Assembly (NCBI RefSeq): GCF_900103975.1
Contig: NZ_FNIR01000011.1
Span: 62,001-126,000 of the forward strand
Source of the DNA: Klenkia soli
Lineage (GTDB): Bacteria; Actinomycetota; Actinomycetes; Mycobacteriales; Geodermatophilaceae
DNA length: 64,000 nt
Reading direction: 5' to 3'
The notes under the pieces are model-generated. The model did no database searches, was not told the origin of the DNA, and was given only the letters and a program-made list of their open reading frames with translations. Both the position numbers and the translations under genes were made by a program. Every line of letters starts with the position of its first letter. The stretch's first letter is position 1. Below are positions 1,770-11,114 of this stretch, piece after piece.

Positions 1770-3287
1770 TCAGCCCTTCTTCTGGGCGGTCTCCACGCTG
1801 ATCAGCCCCAGCAGCAGCGACCAGCCCAGGGCGATGCCCAGCAGCAGGTCGGGCACCTCGCCCAGCAGCAGCCCGATGACCAGCGGCACCGTGCCCAGGA
1901 CGCCGAGGTCCAGACCCCGGACGAGGGTCACGCCCACGCCGGTGGGCACGGCGCCCATCGGGGAGGAGAGCACGGGTCCGGACCAGTCCAGCTCGGGCCG
2001 GTAGCCCCCGCGGACGGCGGCCCCCGCCCACGCCGGCGCGGTGGCGGCCCCCAGCGCGGCCCACTCCCAGCCCAGCCCGACGACCCCGGCGGAGACGGCG
2101 CAGACCACGGCCAGCCCGACCACGGGCACGATCGCCCGGGCCCGGACGACGTCCTTCGCACCCATCGGCAGCGCCCGGTCGGCCGCGGGCGCGCCGTGCG
2201 CCCGCCGGGCCGGTTCACCGAGGGCGACGGCGGCCACCGACCAGCCGATCACCACCGCGACCGCCACCAGCGCCGGGACGCCGCCCAGCCCGTCGGTGCG
2301 GGCGGCCAGCACCGGCAGCGCGGTGCCGATGGCCAGCTGACCCCACCGCCACGGCGACCGCGAGAACACCGCGAGGTCGCCGGCCACCACCGCCTGCCAG
2401 GGTTCCCGCACCCAGCTCCAGCTCCGGGTCCGGCGCGGCGGGTGCACGGGGGTGCCGAGGGCGCGGCCCAGCTCGCGGGTGTCCAGCGACAGCGCCGAGG
2501 CCGAGGCCACGAAGACCGCCGTCCCCCGTTCGCGCAGGGCACCGGCCCGCAGCCGGCCGCTGACCCGGTCGGCGGCCAGCAGCGCGGCCACCGCCAGGAG
2601 CACGGGCACGCCGCCGAGCAGCGGCAGCGAGATGTCCGGGGCCGTGGGCACCCAGGTCCAGCTGCCCACGGTGCCCACCACCGCGGGGACGACGACGGCG
2701 ACGGTGGCCACCGCCCCGGCCGCCGGTGCCACCCAGCCGGTGAGCTCGCGCGCCTGCAGCACGACCAGCACGCCGACGGCGGCCAGCGACACCAGGGCCG
2801 CAGCCAGCACGGTGACGACCACCTCGGGGAGGGTCGGAGCGGCGGGGGCGGCCAGCACCACCGGCAGCGCGACGACGACGGCGGCCACCAGCCCCACGCC
2901 GCAGACCCGGCGCAGCTCGCCGCGCAGCAGGCCGCGGCGGTCGGCCGGCAGCGGCAGCCACCAGGCGGCGGTGGCGGGGGTGGCCGACAGCGGGCCCAGC
3001 CGGGACAGCAGCGCGACCACGCCGGCGGTGACCAGCAGGGCGGCGACCAGGGCGGTCAGCTCGCCGGGGAGGTCGGTGGCGGCCGCCTCGGGCCGGGCCG
3101 CGATCCGCTCTCGCAGGGCCGAGAACGCCCCGCCGAACACCGCGACGACGACGCCGGCGGTGGTCAGCGCGGAGAGGACGTCGCCGCCCAGGGTCAGCCA
3201 GCTGGTGTCGGCCCGGGTCGCCGTGGCCTGCCGGGTGAACCGCCGGACCCCCGCACCGGAGAGCTCGGCGGCCGGGTCGGCGTTCAC
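1770..3287 (-). CDS. Polytopic membrane protein, DUF6297-like, partner of an ABC ATPase
   Basis: This 505-residue protein has about ten or more hydrophobic segments, for example around residues 35-55, 75-95, 125-190 and 330-350. It starts at a GTG overlapping the stop of the preceding ABC ATPase (GTGA), so it is probably the membrane half of that transporter. It resembles the actinobacterial DUF6297 family, known mainly by its ABC-ATPase neighbourhood. There is no signal peptide or binding protein next to it, which favours export or an ABC-2-like role. Substrate unknown. The family name is from memory, not from a search. Confidence 0.7.
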   Translation of the reverse strand: MNADPAAELSGAGVRRFTRQATATRADTSWLTLGGDVLSALTTAGVVVAVFGGAFSALRERIAARPEAAATDLPGELTALVAALLVTAGVVALLSRLGPLSATPATAAWWLPLPADRRGLLRGELRRVCGVGLVAAVVVALPVVLAAPAAPTLPEVVVTVLAAALVSLAAVGVLVVLQARELTGWVAPAAGAVATVAVVVPAVVGTVGSWTWVPTAPDISLPLLGGVPVLLAVAALLAADRVSGRLRAGALRERGTAVFVASASALSLDTRELGRALGTPVHPPRRTRSWSWVREPWQAVVAGDLAVFSRSPWRWGQLAIGTALPVLAARTDGLGGVPALVAVAVVIGWSVAAVALGEPARRAHGAPAADRALPMGAKDVVRARAIVPVVGLAVVCAVSAGVVGLGWEWAALGAATAPAWAGAAVRGGYRPELDWSGPVLSSPMGAVPTGVGVTLVRGLDLGVLGTVPLVIGLLLGEVPDLLLGIALGWSLLLGLISVETAQKKG

Positions 3288-3970
3288 CCCTCGTGCAGCG
3301 CCGCGACCGCGGCCTTCGGCGAGACCAGGGTGCAGGCGTGGTCGTCGACGACCAGCACCCGGCGGGCCACGGTCGAGAGGAACTCGGCGTCGTGGCTGGC
3401 GAACACCACGGTGAGGCCCTCGGCGACGTCGGCGGCGATGCGGGCGGCCAGCCGGCGGCGCATCTGGGCGTCCAGGCGCCGCTCGGGCTCGTCGAGCACC
3501 AGGAGCTTCGCCGGGCGGACGAACGCGGCGGCCAGCGCCAGCCGGCGGCGCTGGCCCGAGGACAGCGCCGAGGGCAGCGCGTGCGCGCGGTCGGCCAGCC
3601 CGAACTCCTCGACCTCGGCCTCGACCACGGCGTCGGGGGCGGTGACCCCGTGCCCGCGGGCGGTCAGCAGCAGGTGCTCGGCACCGGTGAGCGAGGGGAA
3701 GAACGCGTCGTCGTCCAGCACGGTGGCGACGTCGCGCCGGAACCCGGCGTCGCGCTCGTCGACCTCGCGACCGTCGAACTGCACGCTGCCGGCGATGGCC
3801 GGCAGCAGGCCGACCAGGGTCTGCAGCACCGTGGACTTGCCCGCGCCGTTCGGCCCGATCACCCCCAGCGCCGTCCCCGCCTGCACGCCGAGGGTGACCG
3901 GTGCGCAGACCGGTTCCCCGCCGTAGCCGACGGAGAGGTCCTGCACCTCGAGCAACGCGTTCTTGGCCAT
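3284..3970 (-). CDS. ABC transporter ATP-binding protein
   Basis: A single 228-residue ABC domain with Walker A GPNGAGKST, signature LSSGQRRR, Walker B LLVLDEPERRLD and H-loop SHD. The Q-loop position is odd: the sequence reads VLDDDAFFPSLTG where a glutamine is expected, so a Gln-to-Asp change probably alters coupling to the membrane subunit. The signature has Ser-Ser-Gly rather than Ser-Gly-Gly. It is the first gene of a two-gene operon and overlaps its DUF6297-like membrane partner by four bases. It is probably an exporter ATPase. Confidence 0.85.
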   Translation of the reverse strand: MAKNALLEVQDLSVGYGGEPVCAPVTLGVQAGTALGVIGPNGAGKSTVLQTLVGLLPAIAGSVQFDGREVDERDAGFRRDVATVLDDDAFFPSLTGAEHLLLTARGHGVTAPDAVVEAEVEEFGLADRAHALPSALSSGQRRRLALAAAFVRPAKLLVLDEPERRLDAQMRRRLAARIAADVAEGLTVVFASHDAEFLSTVARRVLVVDDHACTLVSPKAAVAALHEG

Positions 3971-4003
3971 CGTCGCGCAGCGTAGGGCGCCGCCCTGTGC
4001 GGC

Positions 4004-5389
4004 TCAGCGCTCGGTGCGGCCCTCCTCGGCCGCCGCCACGAACGGCTCGGCCGGCGAGGGGACGTCGGGGGCGGGCACCGGGCGGCCGGGCAGCACCAGG
4101 TTCAGCACGATCGCCACCAGCGCCGAGACCACGATGCCGGAGCTGAACAGCGCGCCCCACTCCCCCGCGATGCCGGCGATCGCGTCGGGGGCGGCGGCGA
4201 TGCCCCGGCCCAGAGCGACCGACATCGCCACGATCAGCAGCGACCGGGTGTCCAGGCCGTTCTTCGAGAGCAGCTCGATGCCGATGGCGCAGACCATGCC
4301 GAACAGCACCAGCACGCCACCGCCGAGCACCGCGGGCGGGACGGCCGCCAGCACCGCGGCCAGCTGCGGCAGCAGCGCGAGCCCGACCAGCACGCAGGCG
4401 CCGATGGTCACCACGTGCCGGCTCATCTGCTTGGTGAGCGCGACCAGGCCGATGTTCTGGCTGAACATCGTGGTGGGCAACGCGCCGAACACACCGCCCA
4501 GCACGGCGGACCCGCCCTCGGCGAGGATGCCGCCGCGCAGCTCGCGGCGGGTGGCCGGCCGCCCGGCGCCGCCCTCGGTGACGGCGTGCACCGTGCCCAC
4601 CGAGTCGACCATGTTCACCACGCCGACGATCGCCATCGAGAGGATCGCCACCAGCTCGAAGGAGACCCCGAACGCGAACGGCGACGGGAAGGCGACGACC
4701 GGCCGGTCGCCCACGCCGGAGAGGTCCAGCAGCCCGGCCGGGATGGCCACCAGGTAGCCGACGACGACGGCGATGAGCACCGACGCCGCCTTCGCGATCC
4801 CGCGGGCGAACTGGTTGAGCACCACGGTCAGCACGAGCACCAGCCCGGCGACCCCGAAGTTCGTCCAGGAACCGAAGCCCTCGCGGCCCACCCCACCGGC
4901 GGCCAGGTTGATGCCGCTGGGCAGCAGCCCCAGCCCGATGACCAGGATGATCGTGCCGGTCACCACCGGCGGGAACAGGAACGCGATCCGGTGGATGCCC
5001 AGGCCGATCGCCACCTGCACCAGCGCGGTGACCAGCACCCCGCCCAGCACGGCGTCCAACCCGCGCTCGGCGGCCAGCGGGACGGCGACCGCGATGAACG
5101 CGAACCCCGAGCCCATCATCAGCGGCAGCCGGCTGCCCACCGGGCCGATGCCGATGGTCTGCAGCAGGGTGGCCAGCCCGGCGCAGAGCAGCGCGGCCTG
5201 CACCAGCAGCACCGCCTCGCCCGTGGTCGCCCCGATGACCCCGGCCAGCAGGATCGCCGGCGTCAGGTTCGAGGTGAACATGGCCAGCACGTGCTGCAGC
5301 CCCAGCGGCACGGCCACGCCCCACGGCGGCATCGCGTCGGGGTCGCCCGGGTCCCGCCGCGCCTTCGTCGTCGTCGTCCTGCTCGCCAT
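4004..5389 (-). CDS. NCS2-family purine/uracil permease
   Basis: A 461-residue membrane protein of the nucleobase:cation symporter-2 family (uracil, xanthine or urate uptake). The N-terminal LQHVLAMFTSNLTPAILLAG and the later QNIGLVALTK segment match the two conserved half-helix regions that bind the nucleobase; SGFAFIAVAVPL and GMVCAIGIELL are also family-like. I count about 12-14 hydrophobic segments. Two starts compete; ATG 5389 is preferred because AGGGGG lies about six bases upstream, whereas GTG 5410 lacks a clear ribosome site. The C-terminal tail is soluble and acidic. Exact substrate is not assignable. Confidence 0.88.
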   Translation of the reverse strand: MASRTTTTKARRDPGDPDAMPPWGVAVPLGLQHVLAMFTSNLTPAILLAGVIGATTGEAVLLVQAALLCAGLATLLQTIGIGPVGSRLPLMMGSGFAFIAVAVPLAAERGLDAVLGGVLVTALVQVAIGLGIHRIAFLFPPVVTGTIILVIGLGLLPSGINLAAGGVGREGFGSWTNFGVAGLVLVLTVVLNQFARGIAKAASVLIAVVVGYLVAIPAGLLDLSGVGDRPVVAFPSPFAFGVSFELVAILSMAIVGVVNMVDSVGTVHAVTEGGAGRPATRRELRGGILAEGGSAVLGGVFGALPTTMFSQNIGLVALTKQMSRHVVTIGACVLVGLALLPQLAAVLAAVPPAVLGGGVLVLFGMVCAIGIELLSKNGLDTRSLLIVAMSVALGRGIAAAPDAIAGIAGEWGALFSSGIVVSALVAIVLNLVLPGRPVPAPDVPSPAEPFVAAAEEGRTER

Positions 5390-5464
5390 GCCGGCCCCCT
5401 GGCTCCCCACGGCGCCCGCTGCGCCGACCGGTGCCGAGACTGGCGGGTCCGGGTCACAGCCAGG

Positions 5465-6847
5465 TCACAGGGACGTGTCGCGGCGCCCCCAGTCGACGTC
5501 GGCCAGCAGGGCGGCCAGCCGCTCGCCGCGGGCGGGGTGCACCTGGGCCACCCAGGCCACCCGGCCGGTCAGGTGCCGGCGCAGGGCGTGCACGTCGCCG
5601 TCGAACGCGGCGAGGTCGGCCGCCGAGGGACCGCGGCGGACCGCGTTCGTCAGCCGGGCCCGCAGCGCGTCGAGCTCGGCGCGGGGCAGCGACGTCCGCT
5701 CGTTGACCACGACGCCGGTGACGGTCTGCCGGGCGCCGCGCCCGCGCACCCGGGTCTTGGCCGGCTGCACCGCGAAGCCCTCGTCCACGACGATGCCGGC
5801 CACCCGGTCCCGCAGCGCCGCGGTGCCCCGGCCGCCGGAGAAGCTGAGGTCGTCGGCGTACCGGGTGTAGGCGGCGCCGGCTGCGGCGGCCAGCCCGTCC
5901 AGCCGCCGGTCCAGGCGGTGCGCGGCCAGGTTGGCCAGCTGCGGGGACGTCGGCGCGCCCTGCGGCAGGTGCGGCCGGGCCAGCGCGGCGCGGGCGTGGT
6001 CGCGGGCGGCGTCGGTGCCGCCGCCGGGCATGGTGGCCAGGTCGTCGCGGGTGGCCCGGGTGGTGCACAGCCCGGTCAGCAGCGTCGCCACCGGCTCGGG
6101 GTAGCCCGCCGTGCGCAGGGTGGCCCAGACCCGGCCCGCGGTGACCGTGGCGAAGAACGCGGCCAGGTCCATCGTGAGGACGACGTCCGCGCCGACGTGC
6201 TGCCGCGCCCCGGTCAGCGCCGAGCGGCCCGGCACGAAGCCGTGCGCCGCCGGGTGGGCCGGGATCGGCGCGAGGACGGCGTCCAGCAGCACCCGCTGCA
6301 CCGCGCGCAGCCGCGGGGTGGGCACCTCCAGCAGCCGCGGCACCCGGCCGGGGCGGGCCAGCCACCGGCGCCGGTACAGCTGCAGGTGCCCGGCCGGCTC
6401 GTGCCGCTGCCGGCCCTGGGGGTCGGCGTACCAGGCCAGGTGGTCCAGGTCGGTGCCCAGCAGCTCGGCGACGTCGGCCAGGTCGTGCAGCGGGTGCACC
6501 GGCCAGGGGGTGCGGCCCATCGCCGTGGCGGCCGGCAGCCAGGCCCGCACCCGGGGCTCCGCGGGCCGCGGCGGCAGGTCCTCCTCGTCGTCGTACGCCG
6601 GCGGGACGGCGGCCAGCTGCGTGCGGACGGCCAGCAGGAAGCGGGCGAACTCCCGCGGGGCGTCCCGCGGGGGCTCCCGCCAGGCCTCGACCGCGGCGGC
6701 CGCGACCCCGGCCAACCAGTCCGGCGCGGGGTCCAGCGCGCGGCGCCCGTGCGCGACCAGCGCGTCGACGGTCCAGTGCGGGGCGCCCAGGAAGGCGGCG
6801 GAGAGGGCGCGGGCGGTGTGGGTGCCGGGTGGGGTCCGCTGGTTCAC
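5465..6847 (-). CDS. Retron-type reverse transcriptase
   Basis: A 460-residue RNA-directed DNA polymerase. Core motifs are intact: RLLEVPTPRLRAVQRVLL (171-188, motif 1), HGFVPGRSALTGARQH (202-217) leading into the catalytic Asp227 of LTMDLAAFFATV, HLPQGAPTSPQLANL (293-307, motif 4), YTRYADDLSFSG with Tyr-Ala-Asp-Asp at 330-333, QPAKTRV (361-367), and VTGVVVNE (376-383). The VTG segment is the retron-specific region Y. The match looks closest to the myxobacterial/actinobacterial retron group. There is no maturase or endonuclease domain, so it is not a group II intron protein. About 120 N-terminal residues precede the recognisable fold. GTG 6847 is the start. Just upstream lies an inverted-repeat leader placed as a retron msr-msd would be. 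No effector gene is recognisable next door. Confidence 0.88.
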   Translation of the reverse strand: MNQRTPPGTHTARALSAAFLGAPHWTVDALVAHGRRALDPAPDWLAGVAAAAVEAWREPPRDAPREFARFLLAVRTQLAAVPPAYDDEEDLPPRPAEPRVRAWLPAATAMGRTPWPVHPLHDLADVAELLGTDLDHLAWYADPQGRQRHEPAGHLQLYRRRWLARPGRVPRLLEVPTPRLRAVQRVLLDAVLAPIPAHPAAHGFVPGRSALTGARQHVGADVVLTMDLAAFFATVTAGRVWATLRTAGYPEPVATLLTGLCTTRATRDDLATMPGGGTDAARDHARAALARPHLPQGAPTSPQLANLAAHRLDRRLDGLAAAAGAAYTRYADDLSFSGGRGTAALRDRVAGIVVDEGFAVQPAKTRVRGRGARQTVTGVVVNERTSLPRAELDALRARLTNAVRRGPSAADLAAFDGDVHALRRHLTGRVAWVAQVHPARGERLAALLADVDWGRRDTSL

Positions 6848-6875
6848 GGCGTCGGATTCACGTGGAACACCGGGG

Positions 6876-7039
6876 TGCGGTGGCGCGGGCCGACCTGTCC
6901 CGTCGTCCCGACGCGGAGCTGCGCGGAGCGCTGCCGAGCGCCGGAGGCGTGGTGGTGGAGGCTGCGTGCTGTCCCCGGGGCATCCCCGGAGCTGCCGGAC
7001 CGACGCGCGGCACGGCATCCTCGGTCCCGCGCCACCGCA
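6876..7039 (-). ncRNA. Candidate retron msr-msd RNA bounded by a1/a2 inverted repeats
   Basis: Upstream of the reverse transcriptase, TGCGGTGGCGCGGG (plus strand 6876-6889) is matched perfectly by its reverse complement at 7026-7039. Four more pairs (6890-6893 with 7021-7024) extend it past one bulge, giving an 18-bp stem that encloses 127 bases. The a2-like arm ends 28 bases before the start codon. The interior has several further hairpins: 6975-6989 (6-bp stem), 6928-6941 (5-bp) and 6901-6913 (5-bp). This geometry, about 164 nt directly 5' of the RT on the same strand, is what retron noncoding RNAs show. I could not identify the branching guanosine with confidence. Confidence 0.6.
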
Positions 7040-7087
7040 TGCGGTCCACCCTCCCAGATGCCGGCGCCCGGCTCTACCGTCGTCCGC

Positions 7088-7642
7088 ATGGCCCGATCCG
7101 TCGTCCTGCTCCGCGGCATCAACGTCGGCACGGCGAAGCAGATCGGCATGGGCCCGCTGCGCGACGTGCTCACCGCCCGCGGGTACACCGACGTCGTCAC
7201 CCACCTGCGCAGCGGCAACGTCGTGCTGGGCAGCGACCGGGCCGAGGCCGAGCTGGTCGCCGACGTGCACGCCTGCATCGCGGCGGAGTTCGGGCACGAC
7301 GTGGCGGTCGTCGTCCGGTCCGCCGCGGAGCTGGCCGCCGTCGTCGAGGGCGGGCCACGGGCGCTGCCCGCGGGCGCCGAGCTCGACCCGAAGCGCTACC
7401 TGGTCACCTTCCTGCCCGAGGCCCCGGCCCCGGCCCGGGTGGCCGCGGTCCCGGCAGCCGGGCCGGACGACGGCGCCTGGGCGCTGCACGGGCGCGAGCT
7501 GCACCTGTGGCTCCCCGCCGGCGTCCTCGACACCCCGGTCGGCGGCTGGCGGTGGGACCGGCTGCTCGGCGTGCCGGGCACGGGCCGCAACTGGACGACG
7601 GTCACCCGGGTGGCCGAGCTCTCCGCTGCCGACCCGGGATGA
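7088..7642 (+). CDS. DUF1697 family protein
   Basis: A 184-residue protein that opens with the DUF1697 hallmark SVVLLRGINVGTAKQIGM and continues with LRDVLTARGYTDV and LRSGNVVLGS, followed by a TVRSA-like strand and a C-terminal GRNWTTVTRV segment, which is the normal family ending. These are small cytoplasmic proteins of unknown biochemical function that are widespread in bacteria. It is transcribed away from the reverse transcriptase; only about 50 bases separate its ATG from the distal arm of the RT leader, so promoters may face each other there. No link to the retron is evident. Confidence 0.85.
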   Translation: MARSVVLLRGINVGTAKQIGMGPLRDVLTARGYTDVVTHLRSGNVVLGSDRAEAELVADVHACIAAEFGHDVAVVVRSAAELAAVVEGGPRALPAGAELDPKRYLVTFLPEAPAPARVAAVPAAGPDDGAWALHGRELHLWLPAGVLDTPVGGWRWDRLLGVPGTGRNWTTVTRVAELSAADPG

Positions 7643-7743
7643 GGACCGGTAGGGTGCCGGAGGTGCCGTGACCAGCTGTCCGTGGTCGACTGTCCGGGTC
7701 CGGGCCGTCCCCGGCGCCCCGCGACGACGACGAGAGGTACCGC

Positions 7744-8187
7744 GTGGACCGCGACACGGCCAGCCCGGTGTGGCCGTCCGTGGCACCCCCGGACGCCGCG
7801 CCCGGCCGGATGTGGCCCCTCGAACGGGTCTCCGAGCTCCCCCGGGTCCGCGCCCAGCTGCGCCGCCACCTGGCCGCCGAGCTCGGTGACGCACTCTCCG
7901 CCGAGGACGCCGAGCTGGTCGACCGGGTCGTGCTCGCCTTCGACGAGATGGCCTCGAACGCCCTGCGGCACGGCGGCGGCGGGGTCACCGCCCGGGTCGC
8001 CCCGCACGGGCGCTCGTGGCTGGTCGAGGTCTGCGACGAGGCCGCCGTGCGGCCGCCCACGCCGGCGATCGGCCGCGACCCCAGCCTCGGCGGGCTCGGG
8101 CTCTACCTGATCGCCGAGATGTCCACCGCGCACGGGTGGCACACCCACGGCGGCAGCAAGAGCGTCTGGGCCCTCCTCCCCCGCTGA
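7744..8187 (+). CDS. Anti-sigma-factor kinase-like ATP-binding protein (HATPase, RsbW type)
   Basis: A 147-residue GHKL ATPase of the RsbW/SpoIIAB type. The N-box reads VVLAFDEMASNALRHGGG, followed by the G1 box VEVCDEAAVRPP and the G2-like region GGLGLYLIAEM. It lacks sensor and histidine-phosphotransfer domains, as expected for a serine kinase that acts on a STAS anti-anti-sigma factor. GTG 7744 follows a GAGAGG ribosome site. It converges on a PAS-PP2C phosphatase, the class of enzyme that reverses such kinases, so they may act on the same target. A close paralogue lies at 32540-33019. Confidence 0.85.
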   Translation: MDRDTASPVWPSVAPPDAAPGRMWPLERVSELPRVRAQLRRHLAAELGDALSAEDAELVDRVVLAFDEMASNALRHGGGGVTARVAPHGRSWLVEVCDEAAVRPPTPAIGRDPSLGGLGLYLIAEMSTAHGWHTHGGSKSVWALLPR

Positions 8188-8197
8188 ACCGGGCCGC

Positions 8198-10000
8198 TCA
8201 GTCCAGCCGCAGGGCGACCAGCGCGACGTCGTCCTCGGAGCCGGCCGGCCGCAGCCGGCCGACCACCTCGTCGCAGAACGCCTCCAGCGCCGCGCGCCCC
8301 GGCGCCACCGGGCCCAGCTCGGCCAGCAGGGCCGCGAGCCTGGGCAGCCCGTCGTCCAGCGGCATCTCGCGGCTCTCGACCAACCCGTCGGTGTAGAGCA
8401 GCACCGTCGAGCCCGGGGCGACCAGCAGCTCGTGCTCGGTGCGCGGCGACCGGTCGTCGACCCCCAGCATCAGGTCGGCCCGGGCGGTGGCGAGCTCCTG
8501 CACCGTGCCGTCGGCGCGCAGCACCATGATCGGCGGGTGCCCGGCGTTGGACCAGCGCACCCGGGTGCCCCCGGGGCCGCCCCCGGGCTCCAGCCGGGCG
8601 ATGGCCGCGGTGCCCATGGTGTCGACCTGCAGGCCGGTCATCGCGCGGTCGAGGTCGGCCAGGACGGCGGCCGGACCCCACCCGGCCCGGTGCGCGATGC
8701 CGCGCAGCAGCCCGCGCAGCTGGCCCATCGCCGCCGCGGCCTCGGTGTCGTGCCCGACGACGTCGCCGATCACCACCATCGTGCCGCCGTCGGGCTGGCG
8801 GAACGCGTCGTACCAGTCGCCGCCCACCTGGGCCGCCTCGGCCGCGGGCAGGTAGCGGACGGCGACCAGGGCCCCGGGGGTGGCCGGCGGCGCGGTGAGC
8901 AGGCTCAGCTGCAGCTCCTCGGCGATCCGCCGCTGCTGCTCGTACAGCCGGACGCTGTCGAGGGCGAGGGCGGCCCGGTCGGCCACCTCGCGGCCGGCGG
9001 CCAGGTCGTCGGCGTCCATCGGCGGTCGGCCGGGGCCGCGGTGCACCCACAGCACCCCCACCTCGCGGTCACGCGCGACGAGCGGGAAGGCCACCGCGCC
9101 CTCGGGCGCCTCGCCCGGGGTGGTGGTCGCGGTGTCGCCGAGCACCGGCACGACGGCCCGGGCCAGCTGGGCCAGCGCCGACCCGGGGGTGAGGTCGCCG
9201 GCCAGCATGGCCCCGAAGCCGGCCGTGACCTCGGCGATCATCGCCAGCCGGGCGGCGCTGCGGACCAGCTGCTCCTGCGCGCGGCGGCGCTGGGTCACGT
9301 CGAGGAAGTACACGCTCAGGCCGTCGGGCCCCGGCCAGGCGCGCACCTCGAACCAGGCGTCGAGCGGCGGCGGGTAGTAGGCGTCGAACACCACCGGCTG
9401 ACCGGTCTCGACGGCGGACCGGTAGTGCATCTCGAAGTCGCTGCCCAGCGCGTGCGGGAACAGCTCCCACATCACCCCGCCGAGCAGCTCGTCGCGGCCG
9501 CGGCCCAGCACCCGCTCGGCCTCGGCGTTGACGTAGCTGAACCGCCAGTCGGCGTCGAGGGAGAAGAAGGCCGCCGACATCGACTCCAGCACCCGCGACA
9601 CCCGTGCCTCGGCGTCGCGCTGCCCGGTGGTGTCGTAGGCGACCCCGAGGATGCGGGCGGTGCGGCCGGTCTCGTCGGCGATCGCCCGGCCGCGGCCGAC
9701 CACCCACCGCGTGGTGCCGTCGGGCCGCTGCACCCGGTACTCGACGTCGAGAGCACCGACCGTGTCGATGGTCTGCTGGATCGCGTCGCCCACCCGCCCG
9801 ACGTCGTCGGGGTGCAGGCGGTCGGTGAAGTCGGCCAGCGTCTCGCCGAAGGAGCCCCGCTCGTAGCCGAACATCTCGACCAGCCGGTCGTCCCAGACCA
9901 GCCGCCCCGAGGCGAGGTCGAGGTCGAAGCTGCCGATGCCGGCGGCCTCGGCGGCCAGCTCCTGGACCAGGGCCGTCATCGGCAGATCACGACCCTCCAT
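8198..10000 (-). CDS. PAS-PAS-GAF-PP2C (SpoIIE/RsbU-type) serine phosphatase
   Basis: A 600-residue signalling phosphatase. A PAS domain with PAC segment occupies about residues 15-140 (SGRLVWDDRLVEMFGYE; VEYRVQRPDGTTRWVVGRG), and a second PAS about 140-260 (LDADWRFSYVNAEAERVLG). A GAF-like region runs about 265-370. The SpoIIE-type PP2C domain follows, with metal-binding acidic motifs at VGGDWYDAF and VVIGDVVGHD, then WSNAGHPPIMVL, VLLYTDGLVESR and a terminal DDVALVALRLD. It probably dephosphorylates a STAS anti-anti-sigma protein in response to a PAS/GAF signal. No membrane segment is seen, so it is cytoplasmic. ATG 10000 and ATG 9979 are both possible starts. Confidence 0.88.
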   Translation of the reverse strand: MEGRDLPMTALVQELAAEAAGIGSFDLDLASGRLVWDDRLVEMFGYERGSFGETLADFTDRLHPDDVGRVGDAIQQTIDTVGALDVEYRVQRPDGTTRWVVGRGRAIADETGRTARILGVAYDTTGQRDAEARVSRVLESMSAAFFSLDADWRFSYVNAEAERVLGRGRDELLGGVMWELFPHALGSDFEMHYRSAVETGQPVVFDAYYPPPLDAWFEVRAWPGPDGLSVYFLDVTQRRRAQEQLVRSAARLAMIAEVTAGFGAMLAGDLTPGSALAQLARAVVPVLGDTATTTPGEAPEGAVAFPLVARDREVGVLWVHRGPGRPPMDADDLAAGREVADRAALALDSVRLYEQQRRIAEELQLSLLTAPPATPGALVAVRYLPAAEAAQVGGDWYDAFRQPDGGTMVVIGDVVGHDTEAAAAMGQLRGLLRGIAHRAGWGPAAVLADLDRAMTGLQVDTMGTAAIARLEPGGGPGGTRVRWSNAGHPPIMVLRADGTVQELATARADLMLGVDDRSPRTEHELLVAPGSTVLLYTDGLVESREMPLDDGLPRLAALLAELGPVAPGRAALEAFCDEVVGRLRPAGSEDDVALVALRLD

Positions 10001-10056
10001 GCCCCGATCATGCCTGTGCCCACCGACAGCCGCCGCAGGCCGGGCAGGATGTCGGC

Positions 10057-10455
10057 GTGACCGGTGTCGACGAGGTGCTGGCCCGCGCCCGCGAGGGCGT
10101 CGTCCGGTTGGACCCCGCGGGCACGGCGGCGGCGCAGGTCCGCGGGGCCCTCGTCGTCGACACCCGGACCGAGACCCAGCGCGCCGAGCAGGGCGAGGTC
10201 CCCGGCGCCCTGGTCATCGACCGGACCGTGCTCGAGTGGCGGCTGGACCCCACCGGCAGCCACCGCATCCCCGAGGCAACCGGCTGGGACCTCGAGGTCG
10301 TCGTGGTCTGCCACGAGGGCTACAGCTCCAGCCTGGCCGCGGCGAGCCTGCGCGCGGTCGGCCTGCACCGGGCCACCGACCTGGCCGGTGGCTTCGCCGC
10401 GTGGCGGGACGCCGGGTTCCCGGTCGGGCGCGGCCCGGCCGACGTCCGGCGCTGA
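10057..10455 (+). CDS. Rhodanese-like domain protein
   Basis: A 132-residue single-domain rhodanese. The N-terminal CH2A-like segment ALVVDTRTETQRAEQGEVPG precedes the active-site loop VVCHEGYSSSLAA, with the catalytic cysteine at about residue 91, and the domain ends with LAGGFAAWRDAGFPV, the standard C-terminal rhodanese motif. It is likely a cytoplasmic sulfurtransferase; the sulfur acceptor is unknown. GTG 10057 is the start. It runs divergently from the PAS-PP2C phosphatase with only 56 bases between starts, so the two promoters overlap. Confidence 0.88.
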   Translation: MTGVDEVLARAREGVVRLDPAGTAAAQVRGALVVDTRTETQRAEQGEVPGALVIDRTVLEWRLDPTGSHRIPEATGWDLEVVVVCHEGYSSSLAAASLRAVGLHRATDLAGGFAAWRDAGFPVGRGPADVRR

Positions 10456-10490
10456 CGTCCCCGCTGAGGTCCCCCGGCTAGCGTCCGCGC

Positions 10491-11114
10491 ATGGCCACCA
10501 TCCACCTCGCCACGCTCACCCCCGGCAAGCTCGAGCTGCTGCAGGCCTGGGTCCCCGCGCAGCCCTGGGCGGCCGGGCTGGACACCTCGGCCCTGGAGCA
10601 GGTGGGCGCCTACCGGTTCGACGACCCGGCCGGCGAGGTCGGCACCGAGACCTTCCTGCTGCGCGCCGGCGACACGGTGCTGCACGTGCCGGTCACCTAC
10701 CGCGCGGAGCCCCTGGACGGCGCCGGGCTCGTGGGCGTCACCGAGCACTCCGTGCTGGGCACCCGGTACGTGCACGACGGCCCCACCGACCCGGTCTACG
10801 CCGCCGCCCTGGCCGCGGCGTTGCTCATGGGCAGCCCGCAGGCCGAGCTGGAGTACCAGACCCCCGGCGGCCCCGAGGTGCGCGAGCCCACCGCCCGCGT
10901 GCACACCGACGGCGCGCTCGGCACCGTCGTCCCGGCGGTCGGTCCGGTCACCACGACCACCGAGGGGACGACCACGCTGCTGCGCGCCGACGGCCAGGAG
11001 CTCGTGCTGCTCCGCGTGCTGGGCGGCGCGGAGGAGGGCGCCGTCGCCGGCCCGGTGCTGCGCGGCACCTGGTCCGGCCAGGACGAGCCCGTCCTCCTCG
11101 CCCTCGCCCGCTGA
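10491..11114 (+). CDS. Maltokinase N-terminal-cap-like domain protein
   Basis: A 207-residue protein starting MATIHLATLTPGKLELLQAW, followed by LGTRYVHDG and, near the end, VLRGTWSGQDEPVLLALAR. This is the stand-alone cap-like domain related to the N-terminus of mycobacterial maltokinase (the CG0192-related family). The kinase lobes of a real maltokinase are absent, so it should not phosphorylate maltose by itself. It may bind a sugar or partner protein; function is not established. It sits 35 bases downstream of the rhodanese and may be co-transcribed with it. A hairpin follows its stop. Confidence 0.75.
   Translation: MATIHLATLTPGKLELLQAWVPAQPWAAGLDTSALEQVGAYRFDDPAGEVGTETFLLRAGDTVLHVPVTYRAEPLDGAGLVGVTEHSVLGTRYVHDGPTDPVYAAALAAALLMGSPQAELEYQTPGGPEVREPTARVHTDGALGTVVPAVGPVTTTTEGTTTLLRADGQELVLLRVLGGAEEGAVAGPVLRGTWSGQDEPVLLALAR

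Follow-up and report, generated by a model that had tools for sequence, protein, structure and literature searches.

A predicted retron with a covarying leader RNA and no linked effector gene found, in Klenkia soli and its relatives

Retrons are currently viewed as guards of linked toxins, and those without a linked effector, including the first-found myxobacterial ones, are unexplained. In established retron biochemistry, synthesis is primed by the 2'-OH of a guanosine, and the msd is then copied. The retrons Ec86 (Eco1), Ec67 (Eco2), and Ec78 (Eco7) work together with an effector, which is linked or fused. A passage of one survey places the priming guanosine at the inner end of the a1 stem, either inside it or adjacent to it, and surveys such as this list actinobacterial retrons (PMC6868368). 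Retrons without a clear effector are already known, according to a passage of another paper (PMC8867640). A retron-type polymerase is mentioned in a figure legend of a paper on Rhodococcus ruber (PMC6498646), and the annotation tool PADLOC, as described in part of its paper, employs msr-msd models (PMC9252829). Among the open-licence literature on retrons, we found no title on the leader family described here and none that pairs a retron with the Geodermatophilaceae.

We analysed a 64,000-nt stretch of the 4.76-Mb assembly of Klenkia soli, which we call the window (Table 1). A sequence-only reading of this DNA had proposed a retron in which the reverse transcriptase (RT) has a YADD active site and a VTG region Y. 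Both can be read in the translation (YTRYADDL and VTGVVVN), and Pfam RVT_1 matches the protein (E = 1.6e-14). The AF2 model of the RT has a mean pLDDT of 94.6. That reading had also suggested placing the RT against retron clades. By sequence, retron RTs score above every other RT that we found, and in the fold comparison 14 of the 15 listed retron entries rank above all non-retron entries. The PADLOC profiles RT_other (PDLC02949, 500.4 bits) and RT_outgroup (PDLC03740, 496 bits) match the window RT over nearly its full length, including its N-terminal extension, and both match all 60 of the aligned family members. The closest named relative is in Klenkia marina DSM 45722 (Geodermatophilaceae; 82% RT identity).

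Table 1. Features of the retron locus, in window coordinates
Feature	Position	Strand	Basis or remark
Approximate cassette extent (leader and RT only)	5482..7069		absent from three sister genomes (aligned finely to G001 only)
Weak promoter candidate, GAGGGT at the usual -10 place	7048..7053	-	relatives mostly have TANNNT
Leader ncRNA a1-msr-msd-a2, 164 nt (predicted)	6876..7039	-	model R1 match 6875-7040, 140 bits (the window is a training row); covariation
a1, outer 14 nt	7026..7039	-	inverted repeat; both-sided changes in 14/14 pairs of A5
a1, inner 4 nt CCGA, after bulged A at 7025	7021..7024	-	97.1% of cells paired; both-sided changes in 4/4 pairs
Predicted priming (branch) guanosine, directly after a1	7020..7020	-	G in 65/68 leaders; role predicted from known retrons
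msr hairpin 1, variable and covarying	6994..7016	-	A5 helices 3 and 4
msr hairpin 2, CUCCGGGG-NNN-CCCCGGGG, nearly invariant family mark	6973..6991	-	99.5% of cells paired (A5)
Longest predicted reverse-transcribed stretch (msd), at most ~77 nt of DNA, + strand sense	6894..6970	+	predicted from the layout
msd hairpin, two stacked helices	6907..6945	-	A5 helices 6 and 7; both-sided changes in 14/15 pairs
a2, inner 4 nt TCGG	6890..6893	-	A5 pairing
a2, outer 14 nt	6876..6889	-	inverted repeat and A5 pairing
Retron RT	5465..6847	-	460 aa, GTG start; YADD active site; VTG region Y; GARQH region X
N-terminal helical extension of the RT, residues 1-115	6503..6847	-	helices 9-20, 27-37, 45-55, 64-79

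Across the family, YADD is present in 80 of 86 RTs (YVDD in 5), and a loose pattern for region Y finds VTG in 34 of the 86, LAG in 17, and VAG in 6, as well as other triplets. NAxxH is the retron motif of region X. The window RT has GARQH, which keeps the A and the H and not the N (by pattern search, rather than by structural alignment). In the family, the pattern matched 71 of the 86 RTs, only 3 of which have NAxxH; of the 5 type XIII RTs that it matched, 4 have it. The RT is under purifying selection, with dN/dS of 0.34-0.50 within Klenkia (10 pairs). Against the RT of a sister genus (G016) the values are 0.70-0.80, and for the neighbouring permease they are 0.11-0.40.

The repeat that flanks the leader is as the sequence-only reading had given it. 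Its two 14-nt arms are 100% complementary; with the bulged A and the pairing of CCGA to TCGG, the stem extends to 18 bp around an interior of 127 nt, and 28 nt separate it from the GTG start. For this 241-nt stretch, one of 1000 dinucleotide shuffles gave a perfect repeat of 14 bp, and none of 393 random segments of the window had one. That reading had also called the leader structured, and this part stands because of covariation rather than folding energy. The single leader folds no better than its shuffles (z = -0.23, with 77 of 200 shuffles at least equal to it), so a structure could not be claimed from one sequence, and covariation has to decide. The predicted msd DNA also has an ordinary fold, and the leader has no Rfam match.

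The sequence-only reading had named covariation in homologous loci as a check. From 22 alike leaders, which we picked among those with a visible repeat, we aligned 16 by sequence alone (alignment A4) and scored a 48-pair structure that was named from the window and its relatives. (L160, L007, L008, L054, L057, and L060 were left out of the alignment and of the model below as redundant, misaligned, or too divergent.) In A4, 91.3% of cells are paired, and 24 of the 48 pairs have changed on both sides. The covariation score is 0.328, versus 0.136 in shuffles, and none of 500 shuffles scored as high. When the partners were slid by 1-3 columns, pairing fell to 37-47%. In a larger alignment of 70 leaders (A5), 92.2% of cells are paired and 43 of the 48 pairs have both-sided changes; these figures lean toward the structure because A5 was fitted to the model, and we chose its rows, omitting near-copies and most of the weakest matches. 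In A5, a spacer separates msr hairpin 2 from the two-part msd hairpin. Overall, the predicted leader structure is supported by covariation within the family.

We trained a covariance model (R1) on the 16 leaders of A4 and searched 95 sources, of which 3 overlap with the training set (the window, L031, and L070) and 92 were held out; the six left-out leaders were among those searched. R1 has a match adjacent to the RT, and in the same sense, in 95 of 95 sources (E ≤ 0.01 in 93; 0.015 for L100 and 0.04 for L168). There were only two further matches, one antisense to a true match and one with E = 0.58. R1 found a leader at 78 of 80 named loci (six of these are training rows), and the other two (L078 and L081) have too little DNA upstream of the RT. 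When 17 whole genomes were searched, 10 gave a single R1 match each, and the three Klenkia genomes that lack the RT gave none; the other negative genomes (G018, G394, G359, and G020) have only weak RT matches. R1 had no good match (best E = 0.12) at six type XIII loci, at a further RT locus (L152), or at six other RT loci. (The six type XIII RTs and L152 are from Myxococcus and Archangium.) At one locus (G391:C52:33262-33417), R1 still recognises a leader (E = 2.8e-4) near weak, scattered RT matches (G391:C52:32315-33154), and the RT may have decayed there before the RNA.

Immediately after a1, 65 of the 68 leaders that have a letter at this position carry a G (49 of 52 among held-out leaders); immediately before a2, 68 of the 70 leaders in A5 do. 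Because the leader covaries, because R1 finds leaders beside the RT, and because G follows the repeat, we conclude that the element is very probably a retron that makes msDNA; this confidence is for its identity and for the predicted msDNA synthesis, not for its function. The a1/a2-msr-msd layout that had been proposed from one sequence thus gains support from the RT match, the repeat, the covariation, the R1 matches, and the conserved G. By analogy to known retrons (from which we take the single transcript, the priming, the msDNA and its length, and any function), a promoter just upstream of a1 would give one transcript with the leader followed by the RT. Once a1 had paired with a2, G 7020 would stand at the base of the stem. 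The RT would bind the msr hairpins, use the 2'-OH of this G as the primer, and copy the msd (6894-6970 at most) to form a branched, RNA-linked ssDNA of roughly 65-77 nt, so that the end product would be an RT-msDNA particle.

The leader RNA probably starts at a1, as in most leaders a TANNNT (-10) box begins 9-17 nt before it (82 of 110 leaders, with two genomes counted twice). Four equally wide control stretches gave TANNNT in 1-4 of 110. The exact box is absent from the window, from the other Klenkia leaders, and from L006, and a scan of 5300-7200 for sigma-70 promoters and terminators found nothing.

Three sister genomes (G001, G002, and G007) have an empty site. In these genomes, the matches of the flanking genes (7089-7643 on one side and the permease on the other) end about 120-135 nt apart, and homology to the window's flanks resumes at about 7070 and 5481 (by fine alignment to G001 only). 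The piece that is missing contains the leader and the RT, with no other gene. We note that 5465-5481, which encodes the last codons of the RT (DTSL) and the stop, closely matches the empty sites; this could be a deletion scar or flanking sequence that is read as the tail of the RT. We also compared neighbours within 8 kb on each side of the RT at the 80 named loci, and no family by blastp is found in more than three genera. Five clusters reach three genera; four of these clusters could be assigned (sugar phosphate mutase, AraC-type regulator, P-type ATPase, and ABC transporter). Among the seven proteins near the window RT (3287-11111), PADLOC gave only generic partial matches of an ABC ATPase. 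So, neither the empty sites, nor the 80 loci, nor PADLOC on 3287-11111 revealed an effector gene linked to the RT. The observation from the letters that no known retron effector lies beside the RT holds in this wider comparison, and the element appears to be a chromosomal retron that lacks a linked effector.

A match to the RT is present in 51 of 112 Geodermatophilaceae genomes: 46 are strong (E ≤ 1e-36, including some split copies) and 5 are weak. Several relatives carry split or decayed copies of the retron, so it is dispensable. Outside of this family it is patchy, as only 3 of 296 genomes from across the phylum, including the window's own, have a strong RT match. In a tree of rpoB, a genome that has the retron at the same site (G003) groups with the three empty-site genomes with support of 100/100, and the other four carriers are outside of this fork. 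Given these placements, the simplest reading is that the retron was present in the ancestor of the genus and was then lost in the three sister genomes. We compared the flanks of 31 loci, grouped by genera (g1, g4, g6, g9, g11, g12, and others). The site is shared by 5 of 5 loci in g1, by 10 of 10 upstream and 9 of 10 downstream in g6, by 3 of 4 and 4 of 4 in g12, and by 2 of 3 and 3 of 3 in g11. The seven g4 loci fall into several sites, and sites mostly differ between genera, with an upstream HATPase gene common to g1 and g9. Thus, the chromosomal place is kept within several genera, but not all.

The named loci with a leader are from Actinomycetota, Acidobacteriota, Planctomycetota, Pseudomonadota, Myxococcota, and Verrucomicrobiota, and many are MAGs. 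Viral relatives have at most 36% identity among the matches listed. One locus (L038) is on a contig titled Vibrio cholerae 35D (WNZI01000030.1); its RT groups with that of Arthrobacter agilis and shares neighbours with it, and its leader is 71% GC. The contig probably comes from Arthrobacter, although it sits in a Vibrio assembly. Two genomes that hold this retron also encode a second, distant RT (37-39% identity; L023 in G004:C12, and G410:C5:445623-446528).

As for function, we favour an RT-msDNA particle that acts together with a protein encoded elsewhere or through the N-terminal helical domain of the RT. It could be a surveillance particle, as in the defence retrons, whose partner is encoded elsewhere and is recognised via this domain; we would put this at a little less than even. 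An alternative, which is possible but somewhat improbable, is an ordinary tripartite defence retron with its toxin elsewhere in the genome; the RT-msDNA particle would keep the toxin inactive as long as no phage interferes with the msDNA. One paper states that sequestering a toxic effector is typical of retrons (PMC12548924), and the selection on the RT fits with this; also, any partner would have to be in trans because none was found in cis. However, a passage of another paper describes retrons as typically encoded beside their effector genes, with some lacking a clear one (PMC8867640), and a particle that holds a toxin should resist loss, yet the cassette is cleanly absent from three sister genomes. 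We consider it rather improbable that this is an old lineage, with one leader architecture in six named phyla, that works without a dedicated toxin. The RT, its N-terminal domain, and a short msDNA would then be the whole machine, kept by vertical inheritance as a housekeeping or guard particle.

It seems unlikely that the N-terminal four-helix domain is itself an output module, like the fused protease or TIR of PADLOC types XI and XII. The domain is confidently folded when modelled alone (pLDDT 89.8, four helices), it is found in all 45 family members that we aligned, and the RT_other profile spans it as well as the N-terminus of an Mx162-like RT (L150). But sequence and fold searches gave no Pfam, catalytic-family, or clear PDB fold match for it, and because its conservation is weak (mean column identity of 28% and no invariant column across the 45), it is more likely to bind than to catalyse. 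Less likely again is that the retron is a relic, neutral or selfish, whose msDNA brings no benefit and which is being lost from genomes by drift. The patchy matches within the Geodermatophilaceae and the clean empty sites would fit, but dN/dS is below 1 in all 15 RT pairs, compensating changes maintain the leader's pairs across six phyla, and there is no sign of mobility (one leader per positive genome, at a common site within several genera). Finally, the lack of an exact NAxxH motif might point to another RT system (a group II intron, DGR, or DRT) or to an autoregulatory leader. This is very improbable given the ranking of retron RTs by sequence and by fold and the paired ends with G at their foot; the leader's lack of an Rfam match also speaks against it. 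Several observations do run against our preferred explanation of a retron particle: the GARQH in region X, the ordinary fold energies, the lack of TANNNT in Klenkia, the higher dN/dS of the RT than of the permease, and the decayed copies.

On sequence grounds, what we call new is an untyped RT with a leader of its own (as judged against Rfam and the type XIII leaders), in a cassette for which the lack of a partner is shown by the empty sites and the 80 loci instead of being assumed. Because the RNA is defined (by a family model, a predicted priming G, and the place of the promoter), because the retron lacks a linked partner, and because its hosts include culturable soil bacteria, the question of function can be tested. 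RTs from high-GC genomes with short predicted msDNAs may also serve for DNA production in Actinobacteria.

Relative to the known retrons, Ec86 (7v9x and 7v9u), Ec67, and Ec78 are distant from the window RT (21-28% identity), and the first 108 residues of the window RT are outside of the aligned ranges. The PADLOC labels that fit best, RT_other and RT_outgroup, have no type number, and we found no effector or mechanism for them. The sequence-only reading had likened the element to the myxobacterial/actinobacterial group. The family, which is little studied, does have members in both Actinomycetota and Myxococcota, but it is not type XIII (Mx162-like), as RT_XIII gives 281.5 bits for the window RT versus 500.4 for RT_other. 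In contrast, the RTs of two Mx162-like loci (L150 and L151) score best with RT_XIII. (The Mx162 label of these loci is from their leader features and the CAGC context rather than from a reference sequence; part of a survey gives CAGC as the branch context of Mx162 and Sa163, PMC6868368.) In their leaders, the outer repeats are 26 and 29 nt long, the msd hairpin has 34 bp, and CAGC lies shortly after a1, whereas the window leader has CCGA|GG at the end of a1 and a predicted msd of at most 77 nt. Nor do they have the CCGGGG hairpin, and R1 does not find them; the pattern CUCCGGGG-NNN-CCCCGGGG is absent from 660 nt around the RT start at six type XIII loci. Upstream of the RT of L151 (an Archangium MAG) are two 34-bp hairpins whose starts lie 359 nt apart and whose loops begin alike, as though two Mx162/Sa163-like leaders preceded a single RT in tandem. 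The same two myxobacterial genomes also carry members of the window's family (L060 and L057), and a 40-row tree is compatible with type XIII being a sister to this family or nested in it. Like the window RT, those of Mx162 and Sa163 have a long N-terminal extension, and for these myxobacterial retrons, vertical inheritance and host-like codon use are reported in a passage of that survey (PMC6868368).
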